Source of the DNA: Vibrio neonatus
Lineage (GTDB): Bacteria > Pseudomonadota > Gammaproteobacteria > Enterobacterales > Vibrionaceae
Reading direction: 5' to 3'
Length of the DNA: 64,000 bases
NCBI RefSeq assembly: GCF_024346975.1
Contig: NZ_AP024886.1
Span: forward strand, 806,001-870,000
The notes under the pieces are model-generated. The model was not told where the DNA came from, searched no databases, and saw nothing but the letters and a program-made list of their open reading frames with translations. Made by a program: the position numbers and the translations under genes. Shown piece after piece: positions 4,438-59,314 of this stretch (its first letter is position 1; each line of letters starts with the position of its first letter).

Positions 4438-6435
4438 ATGTTTGCAGATAACCCGTTGCTTGCTCAACTAAAACAGCAAATTAAAGAAAAGATCCCTACT
4501 AAAGAAGGGACGATTAAAGCGACAGACAAAAAGTTTGGTTTTCTAGAAGTAGACAACAAAACCAGTTACTTCATTCCGCCTCCTTATATGAAGAAGTGCA
4601 TGCACGGCGATCGCGTTGTGGCATTAATTCGCACTGAAAACGACAAAGAACTGGCCGAGCCAGATCAACTTGTCGAACAAGCCGTGACCCGTTTTATTGG
4701 CCGAATCAAACTGTTTAAAGGACGCTTAAATGTTGTTCCAGATCAGCCACAGTTGCGCAATCTTTCTCTGAAAGCCAAAACGGCGAAAGGCCTCAAACAC
4801 GATATGTTCGCTGAAGGCGATTGGGTTGTTGCGCAGGTTATTCAACACCCTCTAAAAGGTGATGCAGGCTTCATGGTCGAAATCACCGAGAAAATCACCG
4901 ACGCCAATGACAAAATTGCACCTTGGTGGGTAACACTGGCAGAAAACGACCTGCCAAAAACCGAACCTGCTGGCATTGACCATTGGCAGTTGCATGACGA
5001 TGCCGATCTTATCCGAGAAGATCTTACCCATATTCCTTTTGTCACCATTGATGGTGAATCAACAAAAGATATGGACGATGCGCTGTACGCTCGTAAAACA
5101 GAAAATGGCCAGTTTGAACTGACTATCGCTATTGCTGATCCTACCGCGTACATCACGCCGGATGATGAGATGGACAAAGTGGCTCGTGAACGTGGATTTA
5201 CTATCTACTTGCCGGGTCGCAACATCCCAATGTTGCCTAGAGATTTAGCTGACAATCTTTGTTCGTTAATTCAAGACCAACAGCGACCTGCACTGTGCTG
5301 TACGGTAACCATAGATAGCGATGGCACCATACAAGATGATATTCGCTTCTTTGCCGCTAATATCCAATCTCACGCACGTCTTGCGTACAATCATGTTTCA
5401 GACTATTTAGAAACGGGCTCTTGCGAACACTGGACACCGAGCAGTGAAATCGCCACCGTCGTCAATGCGCTGGCGGATATGGCAAAAGCACGCAGTGAGT
5501 GGAGAGAAAGCAACGCGGTTATCTTCCCTGATCGCCCAGACTACCGTTTTGAACTAAGCGAAGATAACGACGTGATTGCGATTCATGCCGATATGCGCAG
5601 AACAGCAAATAAATTGGTTGAAGAAGCCATGATTACCGCCAACATCTGTGCCGGTCGTGTTCTTAGCCATAAATTAGGCATGGGCATCTTTAATACCCAT
5701 TCGGGTTTAAAAGAAGACAAAGTCAATAACGTTATCGACTTAGTGACTGAATACGGCGCACAAGACTTTGATGCACAAAACGTCACCACTCTTGAAGGCT
5801 TCACCGCGCTACGTCGTTGGTTGAACAATCAACCGACCCAGTATTTAGACAATCGCATCCGCAAACACCAAAGCTATGGCGAAATGGGTAACACCCCTGC
5901 TCCACACTTTGCAATGGGATTAGATATCTACGCTACTTGGACATCACCGATTCGTAAATACAGCGATATGGTCAACCATCGCCTGCTTAAAGCGATCATT
6001 CTAGATAAAGCGTCAGTACAAACCCCTGATGACGAAGTGGGTGACGAATTGGCTTTGCATCGTAAACATCACCGAATGGCGGAACGTAAAGTCAGTGATT
6101 GGCTGTACGCTCGTACTCTGAAGAAAGACGTTGCAGCGCAAACTAAATTTAAAGCCGAGATTTTTGATATTGGCCGTGGCGGTATGCGCGTACGTTTAAT
6201 TGAAAACGGCGCGGCGGCATTTGTGCCAAACTCTTTGATTATGGATAACAAAGAGCGCATCGAATCGAGCACTGAGCAAGGCACAATTTCTATCGATAAA
6301 GAGCAAGTGTATAAACTCAGCGATACCGTTGAAATAGTCCTAACGGATGTTGATATCGAGAAACGTAATATAGTGGGTAAACCTACTGACGTTTTTGCAG
6401 ATCTTCCTGCTGAAGAAGATCAAAAGCAAGATTAG
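4438..6435 (+). CDS. rnb: exoribonuclease II
   Basis: RNase II degrades single-stranded RNA 3' to 5' and releases nucleoside monophosphates. The protein begins [14 protein letters not shown], nearly the same as E. coli Rnb ([14 protein letters not shown]), so I chose the ATG at 4438 over an in-frame TTG eight codons upstream. It has N-terminal cold-shock OB folds (FGFLEVD, KSYFIPPP-like), the RNB catalytic domain with the metal-binding motif [16 protein letters not shown], the [18 protein letters not shown] motif, and a C-terminal S1 domain ([19 protein letters not shown]). The length of 665 residues compares with 644 in E. coli. Monocistronic, followed by a strong terminator. Confidence 0.96.
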
Positions 6436-36999: not shown

Positions 37000-37049
37000 C
37001 CAATGCCTACTGCGCTAGAAAAGTTGAGATCTATAGCTAGAATGGCGAT

Positions 37050-37128
37050 TAGTTCCCTACGTCAGCACTAACTGAATCAGGTTCAACGGGTTCGCTATTG
37101 CGATCTCAGCCTATTGGCTCCCCGACTA
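37050..37128 (-). promoter_or_regulatory. TPP riboswitch (THI element)
   Basis: The minus strand carries the conserved THI-box parts in order: CGGGGAGCC, GGCTGAGATCG, then GAACCCGTTGAACCTGATTC, and GTTAGTGCTGACGTAGGGAA. It sits about 85 bases before the thiD start codon. It senses thiamine pyrophosphate and would switch off the eight-gene salvage operon when the cofactor is plentiful. Confidence 0.95.
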
Positions 37129-37632
37129 ATACGATGCAGCGATACTATCAGAGTCCCTATGGTGAGGGAACCAGAAAAGGAAGAAATTCAGAGCCTTGAC
37201 AGTAAATGCTAAATCTGGACATACCTTCGTATACTCAAACTCAACAGAAATAAAACAGATACCCACAAATACCACTAACCAATACACAAATAAAAAATGA
37301 TTGTCATTGATGAGTGAACGTTAGGTATATGGAGCAAACGTTGGTATTTTTCGCCGTGTTGCCAAGTGCGCACAACATCGACAAGTCAACACTTGCAGTA
37401 CCTTCTACTCCTTACATGAGATAATTGCTTAATATTTTAAGGAAAAAATTGCCTCAATATCACATTCACTACAACATGGTGAGCCTGATCACATATTCAG
37501 CAAACGAATAGAAGCTCTCTAGCAATAAAAAATACAATTTGTTACGGTTTCAGCATTAACACTTACATATATTAACAAAACAACAAATTTACCCCCTTAA
37601 ATATTAAGGATTTGCAGTATTTTTGTCCCAAC
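37129..37632. other. intergenic between the thi operon and the tad-like genes
   Basis: Holds the presumed thi operon promoter (minus strand, near 37140-37200) and, on the other side, a CRP-like site at 37478-37493. No gene is recognised. Confidence 0.45.
37478..37493 (+). promoter_or_regulatory. CRP-like site upstream of the tad-like genes
   Basis: GGTGA-N6-TCACA matches the CRP consensus TGTGA-N6-TCACA at 9 of 10 positions, about 150 bases before the tadE-like gene. It suggests cAMP control of the pilin-like cluster. Confidence 0.5.
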
Positions 37633-43692: not shown

Positions 43693-44852
<1,160 letters not shown>

Positions 44853-44919
44853 TGAACACCTCATTAATTGTGGTGACTTTATCACCTAATTGGGTGTCCG
44901 GGATCATTAAACCACTACA

Positions 44920-46224
44920 GAGACTGTCCTAAATTCTGTGTAATTGCCTAAACTAAGCCTTAAAGGCTAAGGATAGGCAATATGAATAAGAAAGAACTTG
45001 AAGCTTTCGCTAAGGAAGCTGCTAAAGGAATTAAAACTCCTGAAGACTTAACTGAGTTCAGCCAAATGCTGAAGAAAATAACGGTTGAGGCTGCTCTCAA
45101 TGCAGAGATGGATGCGCACCTTGGCTACGAAAAACATAAGCCCTCTAAGTCTAATAATTACCGCAATGGCAAGAGCAGTAAACGCGTAAAAACCGAAGAT
45201 GGAGAGTTTGAACTTGATACTCCTCGGGATCGCCTTGGCTCGTTTGAACCTAAACTGGTCAAAAAACACCAATCACGATTTACCTCTATGGATGACAAAA
45301 TCTTGTGGCTCTATGCCCAAGGAATGAGTACTCGCGATATCGTCAATGCTTTCGATGAATGGTATGGCGCAGATATATCACCTAGCCTCGTATCACGAGT
45401 GACAAATGCGGTAATAGAAGAAATAGTTGAGTGGCAATCTAGGCCACTTGACGCCATTTATCCCATCGTTTATCTCGATTGTATTGTGGTCAAGATCCGC
45501 CAAGACAAACGTATTATCAATAAGTCGGTCTTCCTCGCTCTAGGTATTAACACTGATGGTCAGAAAGAACTCATGGGCATGTGGATAGCAGAAAACGAGG
45601 GCGCTAAATTTTGGTTGAGTGTTTTAACTGAGCTCAATCAACGTGGTGTTGAAGACATTCTTATTGCTTGTGTGGATGGATTAAAGGGGTTTCCCGATGC
45701 CATCAACACGGTTTTCCCCCAAACGCATATTCAGCTGTGTATCGTCCATATGGTACGAAACTCATTAAAGTATGTGTCATGGAAAGATTATAAGGCCGTC
45801 ACAGCTGACCTAAAGCGTGTGTATCGCTCAGCTACAGAAGATGAGGCTTTACTTGAGCTAGAGCGCTTTGGCGAAGCCTGGGATAGTCAATATCCACAAA
45901 TCTCCAAGTCCTGGCGCAATCATTGGCAGAACCTCAACACGCTGTTCAACTACCCTGAAGATATTCGTAGAGCTATCTACACAACTAATGCTATTGAATC
46001 TCTCAACAGCGTGATACGTAAAGCACTAAAAAAACGAAAGATCTTCCCAAACGATGAGGCTGCAACAAAAATGGTATACCTAGCGATCAAAGACGCCAGC
46101 AAGAAATGGACGATGCCCATTCAAAACTGGCGTCAGGCTATGAGTCGGTTTATTATCGAGTTCGAGGAACGTCTCGAAAAGCACATTAACTAAATGGCAA
46201 TTACACAGAATCTGTTACAGCCTC
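44920..46224 (+). mobile_element. IS256-family insertion sequence (1305 bp)
   Basis: Imperfect 29-bp terminal inverted repeats: GAGACTGTCCTAAATTCTGT at the left, continuing GTAATTGCC, and its complement at 46196-46224, matching at 24 of 29 positions. It carries one transposase gene. The expected 8-9 bp target duplication cannot be seen because IS3 copy 2 occupies the left flank. Confidence 0.88.
44982..46193 (+). CDS. IS256-family transposase (mutator type)
   Basis: A 403-residue DDE transposase. It begins MNKKELEAFAKEAAKGIKTP and has the hallmark ALNAEMDAHLGYEKH, DTPRDR, the first Asp in PIVYLDCIVVKI, the second in ACVDGLKGFPDAI, the CIVHMVRNSLKYVSWKDYK motif, and the Glu in TNAIESLNSVIRKA. 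It appears complete. A decayed relative of its C-terminal half lies at about 59435-59944. Confidence 0.95.
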   Translation: MNKKELEAFAKEAAKGIKTPEDLTEFSQMLKKITVEAALNAEMDAHLGYEKHKPSKSNNYRNGKSSKRVKTEDGEFELDTPRDRLGSFEPKLVKKHQSRFTSMDDKILWLYAQGMSTRDIVNAFDEWYGADISPSLVSRVTNAVIEEIVEWQSRPLDAIYPIVYLDCIVVKIRQDKRIINKSVFLALGINTDGQKELMGMWIAENEGAKFWLSVLTELNQRGVEDILIACVDGLKGFPDAINTVFPQTHIQLCIVHMVRNSLKYVSWKDYKAVTADLKRVYRSATEDEALLELERFGEAWDSQYPQISKSWRNHWQNLNTLFNYPEDIRRAIYTTNAIESLNSVIRKALKKRKIFPNDEAATKMVYLAIKDASKKWTMPIQNWRQAMSRFIIEFEERLEKHIN

Positions 46225-52227: not shown

Positions 52228-54006
52228 TTACTTAGCAACACTCTCTTCTAAAGAGTCTACTGAGCTATCAACAGCTTTAACAAGAAGCATACCAACGCCG
52301 CTAACAATTGTACCACATAGGATGAAGACTAGACGTCCCCACATTGGGTTGCTTAGTACAGCCATGAACATGATGAACACACCAGCAACTGCAATTAGTT
52401 TACCTAGCATTTGACGCTGTTTGTTATCAAGTTTTTGTTGAGCAACTGATTCTGCAACCAACGGTGTAGCAAGGTTTCCGAAGAATTTATCAACGTCTAC
52501 TTGACGCTCTTCAGAAAGAGGTTTGTAGAACAGAGTTGATAGGATGAAGAAACCACCAGTGAATACGATGTGACCGATTAGACCAATCGCAACTTTCACG
52601 TCAGACCATTCACGTTTAGTTAGCTCTTCTAGACCAAATGCGTGAGATACCATGTCAGCGTTGATAACGAAACCAACAACATAAGAAACGATACCACCAA
52701 CAATCAGAGTACCCCAACCAGCCCAGTCTGGAGTTTTCTTAATGAAGAAACCTAGGAATGCTGGAATAGTCATTGGGAAGCCGATTAGAGCACCAACGTA
52801 CATCATTGTATCGAACAAGCTCAACCCTTTCAGAGAGTTAATGAACTGTGCGATAAGGATGATTAGAATACCAAACACTGTTGAAGTGATTTTTGATACT
52901 GTAACCAACTCTTTCTCAGACGCTTGACCTTTACGAACTACTGTTTCGTAGAAGTTCTTAACGAAGATACCTGAGTTACGGTTTAGACCTGAGTCCATTG
53001 AAGACATTGTCGCTGCAAACATTGCTGCAACTAGAAGGCCTACCATACCTGCTGGCATGTATTCTTGTACAAAGTATAGGTACGCGAAGTCACCTGCTTT
53101 AGAACCTGCATCTGGGTAAGCAGCAGCTAGGTCTACACCTTGACCTGCAATGTACCAAGAAGGCATGAACCAGATGAATACACCACCAAGCATTAGCACA
53201 CACGCTAGAAGCGCTGCTTTCTTAGCATTCTTAGAGTCTTTTGCCGCTAGGTAACGGTATGAGTTAAGCATGTTGTTCGTAATAGAGAACTGCTTAACAA
53301 AGATGAAGAATGCCCAGATGCTGAAGATGCTTAGGTAGTTAAGGTTGTTACCTGCGATAAATGAACCAGAGTCGCCTACTGGGAAGTTATTAATTACTTC
53401 ACCAACACCGCCACCTTGAACAATCGCAACAACAGCACAAGTAATTGTTACCGCCATGATGATAACCATCTGCATAAAGTCAGATGCGATTACCGCCCAT
53501 GAACCACCAGTTACTGACATTGCTAGTACAACTAAACCTGTAATCCAGATTGTCATTGTCATATCAAAGCCGAAGATACCTGATGCAATAATTGCTAGTG
53601 CGTTTAACCAAACACCTGCAGATACAACACTGTTAGGCATTGAAGACCAAGTAAATACTTGTTCGTTCGTAGCACCGAAACGCATACGAATTGCTTCAAT
53701 TACCGTAACAACACGTAGCTGACGGAATTTAGGAGCGAAATACGCAAAGTTCATGAAGTAACCGAATGCGTTCGCTAAAAAGATTACCGCAACAGCAAAA
53801 CCATCGTTATATGCTTTACCTGCCGCGCCTGTGAATGTCCATGCTGAAAACTGAGTCATAAACGCAGTCGCACCAACCATCCACCAAAGCATGTTACCGC
53901 CCCCACGAAAATAATCGCTTGTGGTACTTGTAAATGTTCTAAACATCCAACCTATTGCAATTAAGAATAGGAAGTAAATGCCAACAATCGTAGTATTGAG
54001 ATCCAT
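52228..54006 (-). CDS. SSS-family sodium/oligoalginate symporter (ToaA-like), copy 2
   Basis: A 592-residue paralogue of copy 1, matching it through nearly its whole length. It begins MDLNTTIVGIYFLFLIAIGW and shows the same MFAATMSSMDSGLNRNSGIF and VKQFSITNNMLNSYRYLAAK segments. Differences cluster in the loops and the C-terminal 100 residues. It would also import alginate oligomers; whether the two differ in substrate length or type is unknown. It has its own terminator and a TTGTATTACAA site 68 bases upstream, so it is a single-gene unit. Confidence 0.9.
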   Translation of the reverse strand: MDLNTTIVGIYFLFLIAIGWMFRTFTSTTSDYFRGGGNMLWWMVGATAFMTQFSAWTFTGAAGKAYNDGFAVAVIFLANAFGYFMNFAYFAPKFRQLRVVTVIEAIRMRFGATNEQVFTWSSMPNSVVSAGVWLNALAIIASGIFGFDMTMTIWITGLVVLAMSVTGGSWAVIASDFMQMVIIMAVTITCAVVAIVQGGGVGEVINNFPVGDSGSFIAGNNLNYLSIFSIWAFFIFVKQFSITNNMLNSYRYLAAKDSKNAKKAALLACVLMLGGVFIWFMPSWYIAGQGVDLAAAYPDAGSKAGDFAYLYFVQEYMPAGMVGLLVAAMFAATMSSMDSGLNRNSGIFVKNFYETVVRKGQASEKELVTVSKITSTVFGILIILIAQFINSLKGLSLFDTMMYVGALIGFPMTIPAFLGFFIKKTPDWAGWGTLIVGGIVSYVVGFVINADMVSHAFGLEELTKREWSDVKVAIGLIGHIVFTGGFFILSTLFYKPLSEERQVDVDKFFGNLATPLVAESVAQQKLDNKQRQMLGKLIAVAGVFIMFMAVLSNPMWGRLVFILCGTIVSGVGMLLVKAVDSSVDSLEESVAK

Positions 54007-54482: not shown

Positions 54483-54716
54483 AAAAAAAAACCCATAGGC
54501 AAGTGCAAGCCTATGGGTTAAATCGGTGGTGTACCGAGCCTAAACACTAGAAGGGTATGCTTAGGCTATTCATAATAATTATGGAGCTTTACTAACAAGA
54601 GCCGGCTTAGGTTTAAGCCCACCCTATTTAGTATTCGTTTTTAAAGTCCTAGCTTGAAGAAACTTGACCTTGTAAAAACAGACAGTTAACAGGCGATATG
54701 TAGCCTGTTGCTGTCC
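54483..54716 (-). ncRNA. candidate structured small RNA, about 230 nt
   Basis: No gene lies upstream of a very strong terminator at 54483-54519 (11-bp stem AACCCATAGGC / GCCTATGGGTT, then nine T). Reading back, a TATAAT -10 (54722-54727) and TTGCTT -35 (54746-54751) with 18-bp spacing predict a start near 54715. The transcript would fold into a 5' hairpin (AACAGGC / GCCTGTT, extended by GACAG / CTGTC), then GGCTTA-AACC-TAAGCC, then AGCCTAA / TTAGGCT, then the terminator. It has no convincing coding frame. It resembles no RNA family I know. A TTGTATTACAA site lies inside the promoter. Confidence 0.55.
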
Positions 54717-54721
54717 GATAA

Positions 54722-54751
54722 ATTATATTGTATTACAAATAGCAAAAGCAA
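54722..54751 (-). promoter_or_regulatory. sigma70-type promoter with embedded operator for the candidate RNA
   Basis: TTGCTT (-35), 18 bases, then a perfect TATAAT (-10) on the minus strand. The palindrome TTGTATTACAA occupies 54728-54738, within the spacer, where a bound repressor would block the polymerase. Confidence 0.55.
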
Positions 54752-55219: not shown

Positions 55220-57043
55220 TTAGAACAAATCTGATGCTACGTTGTCAAAATAACTATAAGTACCCGCAGTGCCATTATCACCTACATACATAACAAATGT
55301 AGTTGGAGCCAGTCCATCATCAAATTCTGCTTTCAAATCACCCGGAATCACTTCACCGTTAACAGTTAGTGTGATGTCATCGCCAGACCACGCAATAGTA
55401 ACATCAACCCATGTATCTTGTTCATACTCAGCAACATCTTGCTGAGAAGCATTTTCATCTCTAAATTTCACATCACTAGCTCCAAAAACTATTTCTGTGA
55501 AACGTTTTGATGAGGAAGCACCTTTATCTGTGCCTAAAAATAAATATGATGATTTAACATAGCCATCAGACGGGATATAAACAGATGCTGAAACAGAACC
55601 ACTTTCCGCTGCACCATTTTTAAACTCTTTTGATACTAGAGGTTTCGTACCCTTAATTTCAGGGTCAGAATCTGCAACTAGCGCGCTGTTATCTTCAAGA
55701 TATAGAGATTTTCCATTAGAGTCTGTTGGGTCAACTCTAACTTCAGCAAATGTAGTTGTACCATCAACATTTGTTGCAGTGTAACCGTTCAGACCGTCAA
55801 TTTGAGCACCAATGTCGTATGATTCAAAATCATCTGCAATAACAACTTCTTCAGAACCACCGTCGTCCTCAGAGCCACCATCATCTTCAGAACCACCATC
55901 GTCCTCTGAACCGCCATCATCTGCAGCGCCAGATTGGTTTTGAACTGTTGCTTCATTCGAGTTGCTGTTATAAGGGTCAGCTGACAGGTTGTGGCCATCT
56001 GCATAGCTATCAAAGTTGTCTTCAAATACTAGCTCTTCTGTGTCACCTTCAATGTTGTAAACCTTGAAGTTGTCAGCAAGCAGTTCGAAGTGAGTCGTAT
56101 TGCTGTTGTCGCCCATCTTAATTGCGATAACTTGTACTGCTGCATTTTCCATCGCGTAGTCAAATGGACCGTACGAAGTACCGTTGATGTTGAAAGAGTA
56201 CTGGTTGTTTTCGCCCCACTCTAGTTCAACTTCAAGTTTTTCACCTAGAGTGTAGGTACCAATTGAGTCAGAAAGCTGAGGTTTACCATCAACAACAGTA
56301 TTTGAACGGTAGAATACTTCACCATCATTCAGAACTAACTCACCGTATAAGTTAGAGTTACTAGTACCCGTGCCGTATAAGCTAATGTACGCATTGTTAC
56401 CATTGGTATCTTCAGCTTCAGTAGTGTCTTCATGCTTTTGGTAAGTCAAATCAATGGTAATTTTACCTTGAGCAATTGAATCAACCAATGCACCCGTTGA
56501 GCCATCAGATAATTTCAGACGAAGTTCACCTGTATCGTCAGTCTTAGTATCGATGATCTGAACAACATTGTTAAAGCCAGCATCAGCATTTGCTTTTTCT
56601 ACTGCTGCTTTAATGTCAGCATTATCAATTTGGTTTGTACCTGATAGGTCACCAAAAGCGCCAGTGCTTACAACTAGCGCACCGTCAGTCAAAGTATAAG
56701 AACCATCAACTTCAGTTGAGGTACCATCGTGGTAATAAGTAAATGTAATATCACCATCAGATTCAGTGTACGGAGTTACTGTGATTTTGTACTCACCTGG
56801 AGTTGCATCATCATCGTAATAAGTTTGATTAGTGCCATCAAACACATAAATATTAGGTAGGTCTACAGATTGTGTTGAAGAAGATGTACCTGCTAATTCC
56901 CAGTAAGCTCCAGACAAAGCTGAGCTAGGTGGTGTTACAGTCCCGCCACCTGAAGAGCTTTCTTCAGAACCAACATCGAAATCACAACCGAACAAAAGTC
57001 CGGTAGACAGTGCTACTGCAATCGCTGACTTAGAAACTTTCAT
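55220..57043 (-). CDS. large lipoprotein with paired beta-sandwich-like domains, module 1
   Basis: A 607-residue lipoprotein of unknown function. The signal MKVSKSAIAVALSTGLLFGC puts the modified cysteine at residue 20, followed by DFDVG. Then come a unique domain (about 45-155), a beta-rich domain with TGELRLKLSDG and ELEWGENNQYSFNINGTSYG that resembles concanavalin/LamG-type glycan-binding folds, a linker of four GGSEDD units, and a second such domain (VIADDFESYDIGAQ, VDVTIAWSGDDITLTVNGE). It ends SYFDNVASDLF. It lies 96 bases after a KdgM porin. Glycan binding near the porin is a guess. No lyase catalytic residues are recognised. Confidence 0.75.
   Translation of the reverse strand: MKVSKSAIAVALSTGLLFGCDFDVGSEESSSGGGTVTPPSSALSGAYWELAGTSSSTQSVDLPNIYVFDGTNQTYYDDDATPGEYKITVTPYTESDGDITFTYYHDGTSTEVDGSYTLTDGALVVSTGAFGDLSGTNQIDNADIKAAVEKANADAGFNNVVQIIDTKTDDTGELRLKLSDGSTGALVDSIAQGKITIDLTYQKHEDTTEAEDTNGNNAYISLYGTGTSNSNLYGELVLNDGEVFYRSNTVVDGKPQLSDSIGTYTLGEKLEVELEWGENNQYSFNINGTSYGPFDYAMENAAVQVIAIKMGDNSNTTHFELLADNFKVYNIEGDTEELVFEDNFDSYADGHNLSADPYNSNSNEATVQNQSGAADDGGSEDDGGSEDDGGSEDDGGSEEVVIADDFESYDIGAQIDGLNGYTATNVDGTTTFAEVRVDPTDSNGKSLYLEDNSALVADSDPEIKGTKPLVSKEFKNGAAESGSVSASVYIPSDGYVKSSYLFLGTDKGASSSKRFTEIVFGASDVKFRDENASQQDVAEYEQDTWVDVTIAWSGDDITLTVNGEVIPGDLKAEFDDGLAPTTFVMYVGDNGTAGTYSYFDNVASDLF
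55848..55923 (-). repeat. 18-bp in-frame tandem repeat coding GGSEDD
   Basis: Four near-identical 18-bp units encode the acidic, flexible linker between two domains of the lipoprotein. Slippage would change linker length by six residues without breaking the frame. Confidence 0.8.
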
Positions 57044-58711: not shown

Positions 58712-59314
58712 GATGAAGAACAAGTTGCAACCCTTGAACGTAAGAAGCGTGATGATGAAGCTTGTGGTAAGATAGAAACTGCATACCCTGGTTATCTAGG
58801 TTCTCAAGACACTTTCTATGTCGGGAACTTGAAATGTGTTGGTCGCATTTATCAACATACCTTCGTTGATACCTACATCAAAGTCGCTTTCGCTGGGTTG
58901 TACACAACCAAAACACACATTACGGCTTCAGACATGTTGAATGACAAAGTTCTACCGTTCTTTGAGGCTAAAGAACTACCAATGCTTCGAATCTTAACTG
59001 ATCGTGGGACGGAATACTGTGGACGTGTCGACCGGCATGACTACCAACTCTATCTTGCAATTAATGATATCGACCACACCAAAACTAAAGCTATGTCACC
59101 ACAAACTAATGGCATCTGTGAGCGCTTCCACAAGACCATATTGAATGAGTTTTATCAAGTGACTTTTAGAAAGAAACTGTATAGCGCAATGGACGAATTA
59201 AAGTAAGATCTGGACGAATGGATGGACTACTACAACAATCAACGTACTCATCAAGGAAAAATGTGCTGTGACAGAACACCGATAGATACATTAGAGGATG
59301 GGAAAACCATCTGA
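58712..59314 (+). pseudogene. decayed IS481-family transposase
   Basis: Translation gives VATLERKKRDDEACGKIETA, then GSQDTFYVGNLKCVGRIYQH, the rve core with LTDRGTEYCG, SPQTNGICERFHKTILNEFY and the ending DYYNNQRTHQGKMCC, all typical of IS481 transposases. The N-terminal helix-turn-helix part is missing (a stop directly precedes the frame) and a TAA at 59204-59206 interrupts the frame before DLDEWMDYYN. It is a relic and cannot make a working enzyme. Confidence 0.85.

Follow-up and report, generated by a model that had tools for sequence, protein, structure and literature searches.

Brown algae contain alginate as a major polysaccharide, and the marine bacteria able to degrade it include vibrios. 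One of the closest described systems is Vsr217 of V. tasmaniensis LGP32, a sugar-regulon-induced RNA from the malK 5' UTR with MalT as the activator, which acts in trans on central carbon metabolism (fbp) (PMC8265627). VcdRP of Vibrio cholerae, as presented in the consulted part of its source, is repressed by CRP, represses PTS messages, has a C-rich pairing stretch, conserved in its 3' part and placed before the terminator, and carries a small protein in the same RNA (PMC8672173). SgrS/SgrT of enteric bacteria is a sugar-linked small RNA with a coding part confined to a subset of species (see also PMC8672173). For alginate itself, the available text on Vibrio sp. C42 reports that growth on alginate raises expression of the alginate locus, its symporter and two of the three GntR genes included, and a word search of this main text returned no mention of sRNA, small RNA, promoter or EMSA (PMC13390454).

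We analysed a stretch of 64,000 nucleotides from Vibrio neonatus (the window), in which positions 54715-54483 of the minus strand very probably encode a small regulatory RNA that seaweed-eating vibrios retain next to their alginate-uptake genes. By description, this RNA resembles Vsr217 in being a Vibrio small RNA linked to a carbohydrate-uptake gene; unlike Vsr217, as far as that RNA is covered in the sections consulted, it has a downstream gene with an operator-like site of its own and belongs to a locus for alginate. The likeness to VcdRP likewise goes by description and concerns the candidate pairing stretch ahead of the terminator and the small protein that Harveyi-type forms of the family seem to carry; unlike VcdRP as described there, the window RNA lacks a conserved frame, and its operator is another one. 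SgrS/SgrT differs from it in operator and locus, the sequences having been compared in the Rfam scan alone.

Promoter, terminator and fold of the candidate gene

The candidate gene extends on the minus strand from its promoter (54751-54722) to the end of its terminator (54483), giving a predicted RNA of about 232 nt (54715-54483) whose start is known by inference only, from the -10 element. The initial annotation had called the promoter near-consensus. This description suits the -10 element TATAAT (54727-54722), for which relatives have TATAAT or TATACT, but not the -35 element TTGCTT (54751-54746), which was also read from the sequence, is weak (three of six positions matching, with 18 nt spacing) and lies in a region (54751-54722) for which the promoter scanner made no call. 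The weak -35 element gains support because ACTTGCTTTT is exact in seven of ten aligned loci. The promoter spacer contains a perfect operator-like palindrome, TTGTAATACAA (54738-54728), which abuts the -10 element. The promoter-like sequence is conserved, and among relatives with listed frames the upstream neighbours differ.

The intrinsic terminator stem-loop at 54519-54490, with 11 pairs, UGCAC in the loop and a T tail to 54483, does stand where no gene ends: no listed frame of at least 60 codons stops there, and the frames at 52228-54006 and 55220-57043 end elsewhere. All 11 aligned forms carry at least seven T residues after the 11-pair stem. Terminator-like sites between 52000 and 57000 numbered seven, compared with 3.5 ± 2.1 in shuffles. 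Because the gene upstream of the candidate RNA (55220-57043) has its own terminator-like site at 55196-55172, the RNA is not the 3' end of that gene. The gene downstream (52228-54006, minus strand) encodes a sodium:solute symporter (SSF, PF00474).

The 239-nt stretch folded at -89.6 kcal/mol (z = -7.7), a value equalled by none of 200 shuffles. Read from its 5' end, the RNA begins with a variable domain of three imperfect hairpins (54715-54591), which differs in length and sequence between relatives, followed by a conserved stretch between hairpins, GCUCCAUAAUUAUUAUGAAUA (54587-54567), which is a candidate pairing region. Hairpin B (54566-54538; stem GCCUAAGC/GUUUAGGC) presents a CCCUUCU loop as a second candidate pairing region, and hairpin C (54536-54524; CGG-UACACCA-CCG), with three invariant pairs in 11 of 11 forms, precedes the terminator. 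Three further hairpins with perfect stems had initially been proposed; the stem at 54566-54538 is indeed perfect, but the 5' hairpins contain bulges or internal loops. The longest reading frame in the window RNA has 18 codons, single close relatives reach up to 37 codons, and no frame is common to all 11 close forms, in agreement with the earlier view that the stretch holds no convincing frame.

At the gathering threshold, no Rfam 15 family was found over the stretch, either in the window or in the loci of eleven relatives. The open-access full-text literature on how vibrios use alginate, on the regulators involved and on small RNAs of the genus gave no description among the matches listed, so that within these two resources the RNA is undescribed, as first stated. 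The best sub-threshold match, anti-hemB (RF02837), covered 54565-54483 including the terminator and scored 25.3 bits against a gathering value of 49.5; we rejected this identity as a chance resemblance of terminator hairpins. The RNA family appears new; a small RNA of a sugar regulon is of an already known kind. A relative of the window RNA may sit unnamed in an RNA-seq list of 250 candidate RNAs of V. tasmaniensis LGP32, which is mentioned in the consulted part of PMC8265627. The Rfam scan also placed a TPP riboswitch elsewhere in the window (37037-37134, minus strand; RF00059, 76.5 bits) and a manganese riboswitch in another locus (L080), 5 kb from the RNA stretch.

Conservation of the RNA and its wider family

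A BLAST search with the stretch matched 10 of 227 Vibrio genomes, its own included, and an eleventh, divergent carrier (genome G058, locus L020) was found by inspecting symporter loci. Alignment of these close relatives revealed three zones, namely a conserved promoter, a variable 5' half and a nearly fixed 3' core of about 112 nt. The covariance model built on this core, R1, matched 11 of the 227 genomes at E ≤ 5.4e-17 and, at a limit of 0.1, 12 of the 227 as well as 6 of 247 sampled genomes of the family; the E-values of this model and of the second one described below are rough, both being home-made, and the counts for each cover genomes including those used to build it. Two R1 matches, in L056 (0.063) and L057 (0.0235), looked on reading like ordinary terminators and were not counted. 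Outside the genus, the 247-genome family sample yielded a sole match (0.0235), which was read as chance. Both genus scans ran with stricter filters, and absence from the remaining genomes is accordingly no proof. Seven of the eleven close-form carriers are V. halioticoli, V. ezurae, V. inusitatus, V. superstes, V. comitans, V. breoganii and Vibrio sp. UCD-FRSSP16_30, and the eleven are here called the Halioticoli group.

Absent covariation and poor conservation of the stems among relatives had been named beforehand as grounds for refuting the candidate, and the comparison did not refute it. In the R1 alignment, 98.7% of the paired cells were kept, and two-sided changes occurred in 11 of 22 pairs, compared with 2.5 ± 1.4 in shuffles, none of 500 being as high; these shuffles ignore phylogenetic relatedness, and the alignment had been adjusted to the structure, a step that biases the result in its favour. 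When partners were slid by 1-3 columns, 0 or 1 pairs with two-sided changes remained. Hairpin B contributed such changes in seven of eight pairs and the terminator in four of 11; hairpin C contributed none, being invariant and uninformative. The changes stem mainly from L010 and L020 and so represent few events, yet whole stems were rewritten in them. RNAalifold recovered the same three hairpins from the alignment, and 12 of its 25 pairs showed two-sided changes. While the stems changed, CUCCAUAA, CCCUUCU in loop B and UGCAC in the terminator loop stayed fixed, which is, at the sequence level, the pattern expected of an RNA that would work through particular sequences. If the stretch were a repeat, a structured DNA element or the debris of a terminator, with no RNA function, this could explain why the 5' half changes fast; such a reading is highly improbable given the compensatory changes, the invariant loop and inter-hairpin sequence, the conserved promoter directly upstream, and the presence of one copy in the genome.

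Weak R1 matches in other clades occurred at the same place upstream of symporters. The transcript-like units found there share a TTGCTCC(C)AACTAT-like motif, one or two small hairpins and CAGG in the terminator loop, and most carry a TATTTGTAATACAwTA-like promoter. We built a second model, R2, from ten of these other-clade RNAs, none of them from the Halioticoli group, with sources including V. splendidus, V. crassostreae, V. tasmaniensis, V. fortis, V. aestuarianus, V. maerlii and Aliivibrio sifiae. R2 matched 46 of 227 genomes at E ≤ 0.01, none among the 11 R1 carriers; one of these matches, in G016 (8.8e-4; a genome without the symporter), is doubtful, yet is counted in the 46 and in the 57 carriers of either model. 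Applied to 58 loci (454 kb) chosen for holding a symporter, several of which are second copies of one genome, R2 gave 28 matches at E ≤ 1, of which 27 lay on the same strand upstream of the symporter. In its structure, seven of 17 pairs showed two-sided changes, and none of 500 shuffles scored as high.

R2 recovered every Halioticoli locus given to it (L010, 9.2e-5; L020, 8.5e-4; others, 0.013-0.41), at the same coordinates as the R1-family RNAs; the independent evidence is this recovery of sequences outside its own build set. Because R2, built without the window's relatives, recovers them at the same coordinates, the two sets belong to one wider Vibrio/Aliivibrio family, and the window RNA is, judged by model and position, the local form of a family that occurs in numerous alginate-using Vibrio as well as in at least one Aliivibrio. 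Upstream of the core, TTGTANTACA was found in 30 of 30 R2-fetched loci with a relaxed pattern and in 28 of 30 with a strict one. A longer form, identified from its motif and its position, occurs in V. harveyi, V. jasicida and V. owensii, and R2 matched the long form of V. jasicida weakly (0.19).

Linkage to the alginate-type symporter and a shared palindrome

Genomes carrying the RNA were enriched in the symporter: a relative of it (E ≤ 1e-100) was present in 55 of 57 R1 or R2 carriers, compared with 123 of 227 genomes overall (Fisher test, P = 1e-15, uncorrected for phylogeny). All 11 R1 matches lay 438-1252 bp upstream of a symporter on the same strand, and at least 39 of 46 R2 matches were placed upstream of a symporter gene on the same strand, so that the two models together gave at least 50 of 57. 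Among the symporter matches listed, the distance from RNA to symporter ranged from 296 to 3280 bp over R1 and R2 matches, and seven of 57 model matches had no symporter within 5 kb. Judged by eye, a KdgM-porin-like frame stands near the RNA in G171, G057 and G017, accompanied in G057 by a GntR-like frame; the G163 match sits at the end of a contig, next to a porin-like frame, and the surroundings in G198 contain neither porin nor symporter. The other two of the seven are the G179 match and the doubtful one in G016.

Several individual loci deserve separate mention. G179 (L229, near position 4752) has a strong family match (8.4e-15) in a genome without an alginate-type symporter match, and this orphan copy is useful for learning what the RNA does outside alginate use. 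In the V. fortis group (L026-L029 and L067), the family member itself stands before the second symporter, and the first symporter is preceded by a different stretch that ends in a terminator and has a TTAGTAATACAATAAT-like promoter, perhaps one more, diverged copy. The second symporter of V. halioticoli (G064:C71:30083-31855) contains one in-frame TGA, either a sequencing error or the sign of a decaying copy.

The initial annotation had also pointed to one palindrome shared by the RNA promoter spacer and the symporter promoters, and the sequences bear this out. In the window, TTGTATTACAA/TTGTAATACAA occurs twice as an exact match, in the RNA promoter (see above) and at 54084-54074 (minus strand) before the neighbouring symporter gene, where 11 close loci (L015-L025) have it at the same place; a variant, TTGTAGTACAA (TTGTACTACAA), lies at 51051-51041 (minus strand) upstream of the second symporter (50975-49200, minus strand). 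With one mismatch allowed, the window contained six matches against 2.7 expected, and 9 of 100 shuffles had as many. The palindrome is not rare at this level, and its position and conservation therefore carry the weight. It aligned in the promoters of close relatives including L020, with L010 retaining only GTAATACAA. All three symporters found in the genome have TTGTANTACAA 61-67 bp before their start codons. Across the same genome, TTGTANTACAA occurred exactly at 16 sites, compared with nine for the reversed control, and 12 of the 16 (15 of which were fetched) stand at neither a symporter nor this RNA. In 78 named symporter loci, an exact site started 66-87 bp before the ATG in 62, a one-mismatch site was present in one, and the site was absent in 15. 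One exact palindrome (L205; G000:C2:664375-664385) lies on the second replicon about 109 bp upstream of a short-chain dehydrogenase frame, a possible further member of the regulon.

FadR-type (GntR/FCD) operators have the consensus TNGTNNNACNA. By inspection, TTGTAATACAA fits this consensus and is a putative GntR/FCD operator. Two GntR/FCD genes are located at C2 875.7-877.8 kb, in the same island and 15-17 kb from the RNA. This island also contains two Hepar_II_III/alginate-lyase proteins, presumably PL17-like, together with a cupin, a PfkB kinase, an Eda-like frame, a KdgM porin and the third symporter; from context, the cupin would be KdgF-like and the kinase KdgK-like. Transposase and integrase-core genes at 43693-46193 and 58829-59206, beside and within the island, suggest rearrangement. 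The presence of an operator-like palindrome at the RNA and at all three symporter promoters supports, at the level of sequence, the earlier suggestion of co-regulation with alginate uptake, and the RNA is probably switched on together with the alginate-uptake genes.

The same arrangement could arise if the RNA were a cis-acting leader, with transcription from its promoter stopping at the terminator and reading through into the symporter on a signal, as in an attenuator or riboswitch. The frequent same-strand position upstream of a symporter (at least 50 of 57 matches) would suit such a leader, and Vsr217, in the consulted part of PMC8265627, acts on malK in cis besides in trans. We nevertheless consider a leader quite unlikely, since the symporter has an operator-like palindrome of its own (exact in 62 of 78 named loci, see above) and the gap between RNA and symporter is 0.3-3.3 kb among the symporter matches listed. 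In V. splendidus (L121), moreover, a 203-codon frame on the opposite strand lies between the two, around some copies the 6-11 kb examined contains no symporter, and no riboswitch family in Rfam matches the stretch. The symporter's own operator-like site, the long gap, the intervening frame in L121 and the copies lacking a nearby symporter likewise led us to reject an RNA derived from a 5' UTR in the manner of Vsr217.

Small frames, candidate pairing regions and proposed function

In the longer forms, a hydrophobic frame of 42-45 aa lies between promoter and core in V. jasicida (L061), V. owensii (L065) and L035; it spans L037:603-740, with the same place in the other three, and L037 and L040 are identical to L061 and L065, respectively, in a 600-base comparison. 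Of the 38 codons aligned between L035 and L037, stop included, 18 differ synonymously and nine non-synonymously (raw counts). This excess of synonymous differences suggests that the Harveyi-type frame is translated, and some Harveyi-type forms seem, from these sequence comparisons, also to encode a small membrane protein. Vibrio sp. qd031 (L103) and V. sinaloensis (L084) have frames of similar size, and that of L085 is shorter; the L103 and L084 frames resemble the Harveyi-type frame little and share its position. These frames would agree with a dual-function RNA, in which some family members combine a membrane-protein part with a regulatory 3' domain and the window form keeps the RNA function only. 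We regard this as unlikely, for besides the lack of a frame common to the 11 close forms, no conserved ATG frame was found in the 30 R2 loci examined, the frame of V. harveyi NBRC 15634 (L086) has no ATG, and in L084 and L085 the sequence upstream of the frame showed no operator. Since it is absent as a shared frame from the 11 close and 30 R2 loci, the small frame was possibly gained elsewhere. The window's form has no conserved small frame of the VcdRP or SgrS/SgrT kind. A more far-reaching proposal, conceivable and still doubtful, is a family of alginate-dedicated RNAs, the window RNA being one branch, with a constant 3' pairing domain to which a small single-span membrane protein was added or lost from clade to clade. 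Such a family would be a counterpart of SgrS/SgrT co-induced with the symporter through GntR, the RNA rewiring carbon flow and the protein, in those forms that have it, acting on the transporter.

We judge it reasonably probable that the window encodes a stand-alone, alginate-induced, base-pairing small RNA of the Vibrio alginate-utilization locus. Its sequence displays a promoter with a putative palindromic operator, compensated stems, invariant CUCCAUAA and CCCUUCU, a terminator and linkage to the symporter. CUCCAUAA is invariant in the 11 close forms, and UUGCUCCCAACUAU is present in most of the wider family. The CAUAA of the CUCCAUAA stretch is predicted to be mostly open in eight of 11 close forms; in the window RNA and two near relatives it is predicted to close a weak 5-pair AU hairpin, with AAGCUC open. 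The CCCUUCU loop of hairpin B occurs in all 11 close forms, each time with a predicted openness of ≥0.99, and is not kept in the Splendidus type. Because half of the CUCCAUAA stretch is predicted to be weakly paired in the window RNA and CCCUUCU is not kept in the wider family, no pairing region is both exposed here and common to all. With its U-tailed terminator and an invariant, predicted-open CCCUUCU loop within a conserved structure, the window form has features of Hfq-type sRNAs.

Searches for targets gave no candidate that withstood comparison. The anti-seed complement of the conserved stretch, allowing up to two mismatches, had 33 sites in the RNA's own genome, compared with 36 for the reversed-pattern control; among 30 fetched sites, few were near starts and none had further support, including one that begins 15 nt before the ATG of a frame we take to be NrdR-like. 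Exact 12-mers in 21 and 13 genomes gave 14 and four matches, and the shared flanks consisted of five own-antisense sites only. In six genomes, 22 anti-seed sites were found before an ATG, four of them being the RNA's own antisense, and none of the 22 was a convincing conserved match to a start or ribosome site. Three of the sites share AAGGCCTCG and were rejected because their frames have only five codons; two that share AAGTTCG precede frames of 58 codons, but these also begin 10 codons upstream, and they were likewise set aside. Four short pieces of the RNA tested against 19 island start regions reached a best z of -2.0 (100 simple shuffles each; the PL6 start was set 3 nt late). An 8-bp match between the CCCUUCU loop and the ribosome site of the PL6 lyase is lost in most relatives, and whole-core duplexes with genes in 12 loci were discarded, unrealistic loops having been allowed. 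As every target search was negative, the base-pairing target and the sign of regulation remain proposals.

For a stand-alone base-pairing RNA, we propose the following course, whose first step is suggested by the sequence only. A GntR/FCD regulator of the island would keep the promoter shut by sitting on the spacer TTGTANTACAA. By analogy with described systems, alginate breakdown products would release the repressor, and the RNA and the symporter would rise together. The RNA, with its U-tailed terminator, would probably be held by Hfq, and its CCCUUCU loop and/or GCUCC(C)A may pair with the ribosome-binding sites of other messages and bring their translation down. In this way, the RNA could tune central or competing carbon metabolism to alginate feeding, much as Vsr217 does for maltose.

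Among the open-access literature matches listed, none concerned a regulatory RNA in the alginate pathway. An RNA family tied to alginate uptake offers a concrete, testable post-transcriptional layer for this pathway, together with a covariance model that can be applied to other genomes, and it bears on the engineering of vibrios for seaweed biorefining. The forms with and without the small protein provide a natural series on the origin or decay of dual-function RNAs.
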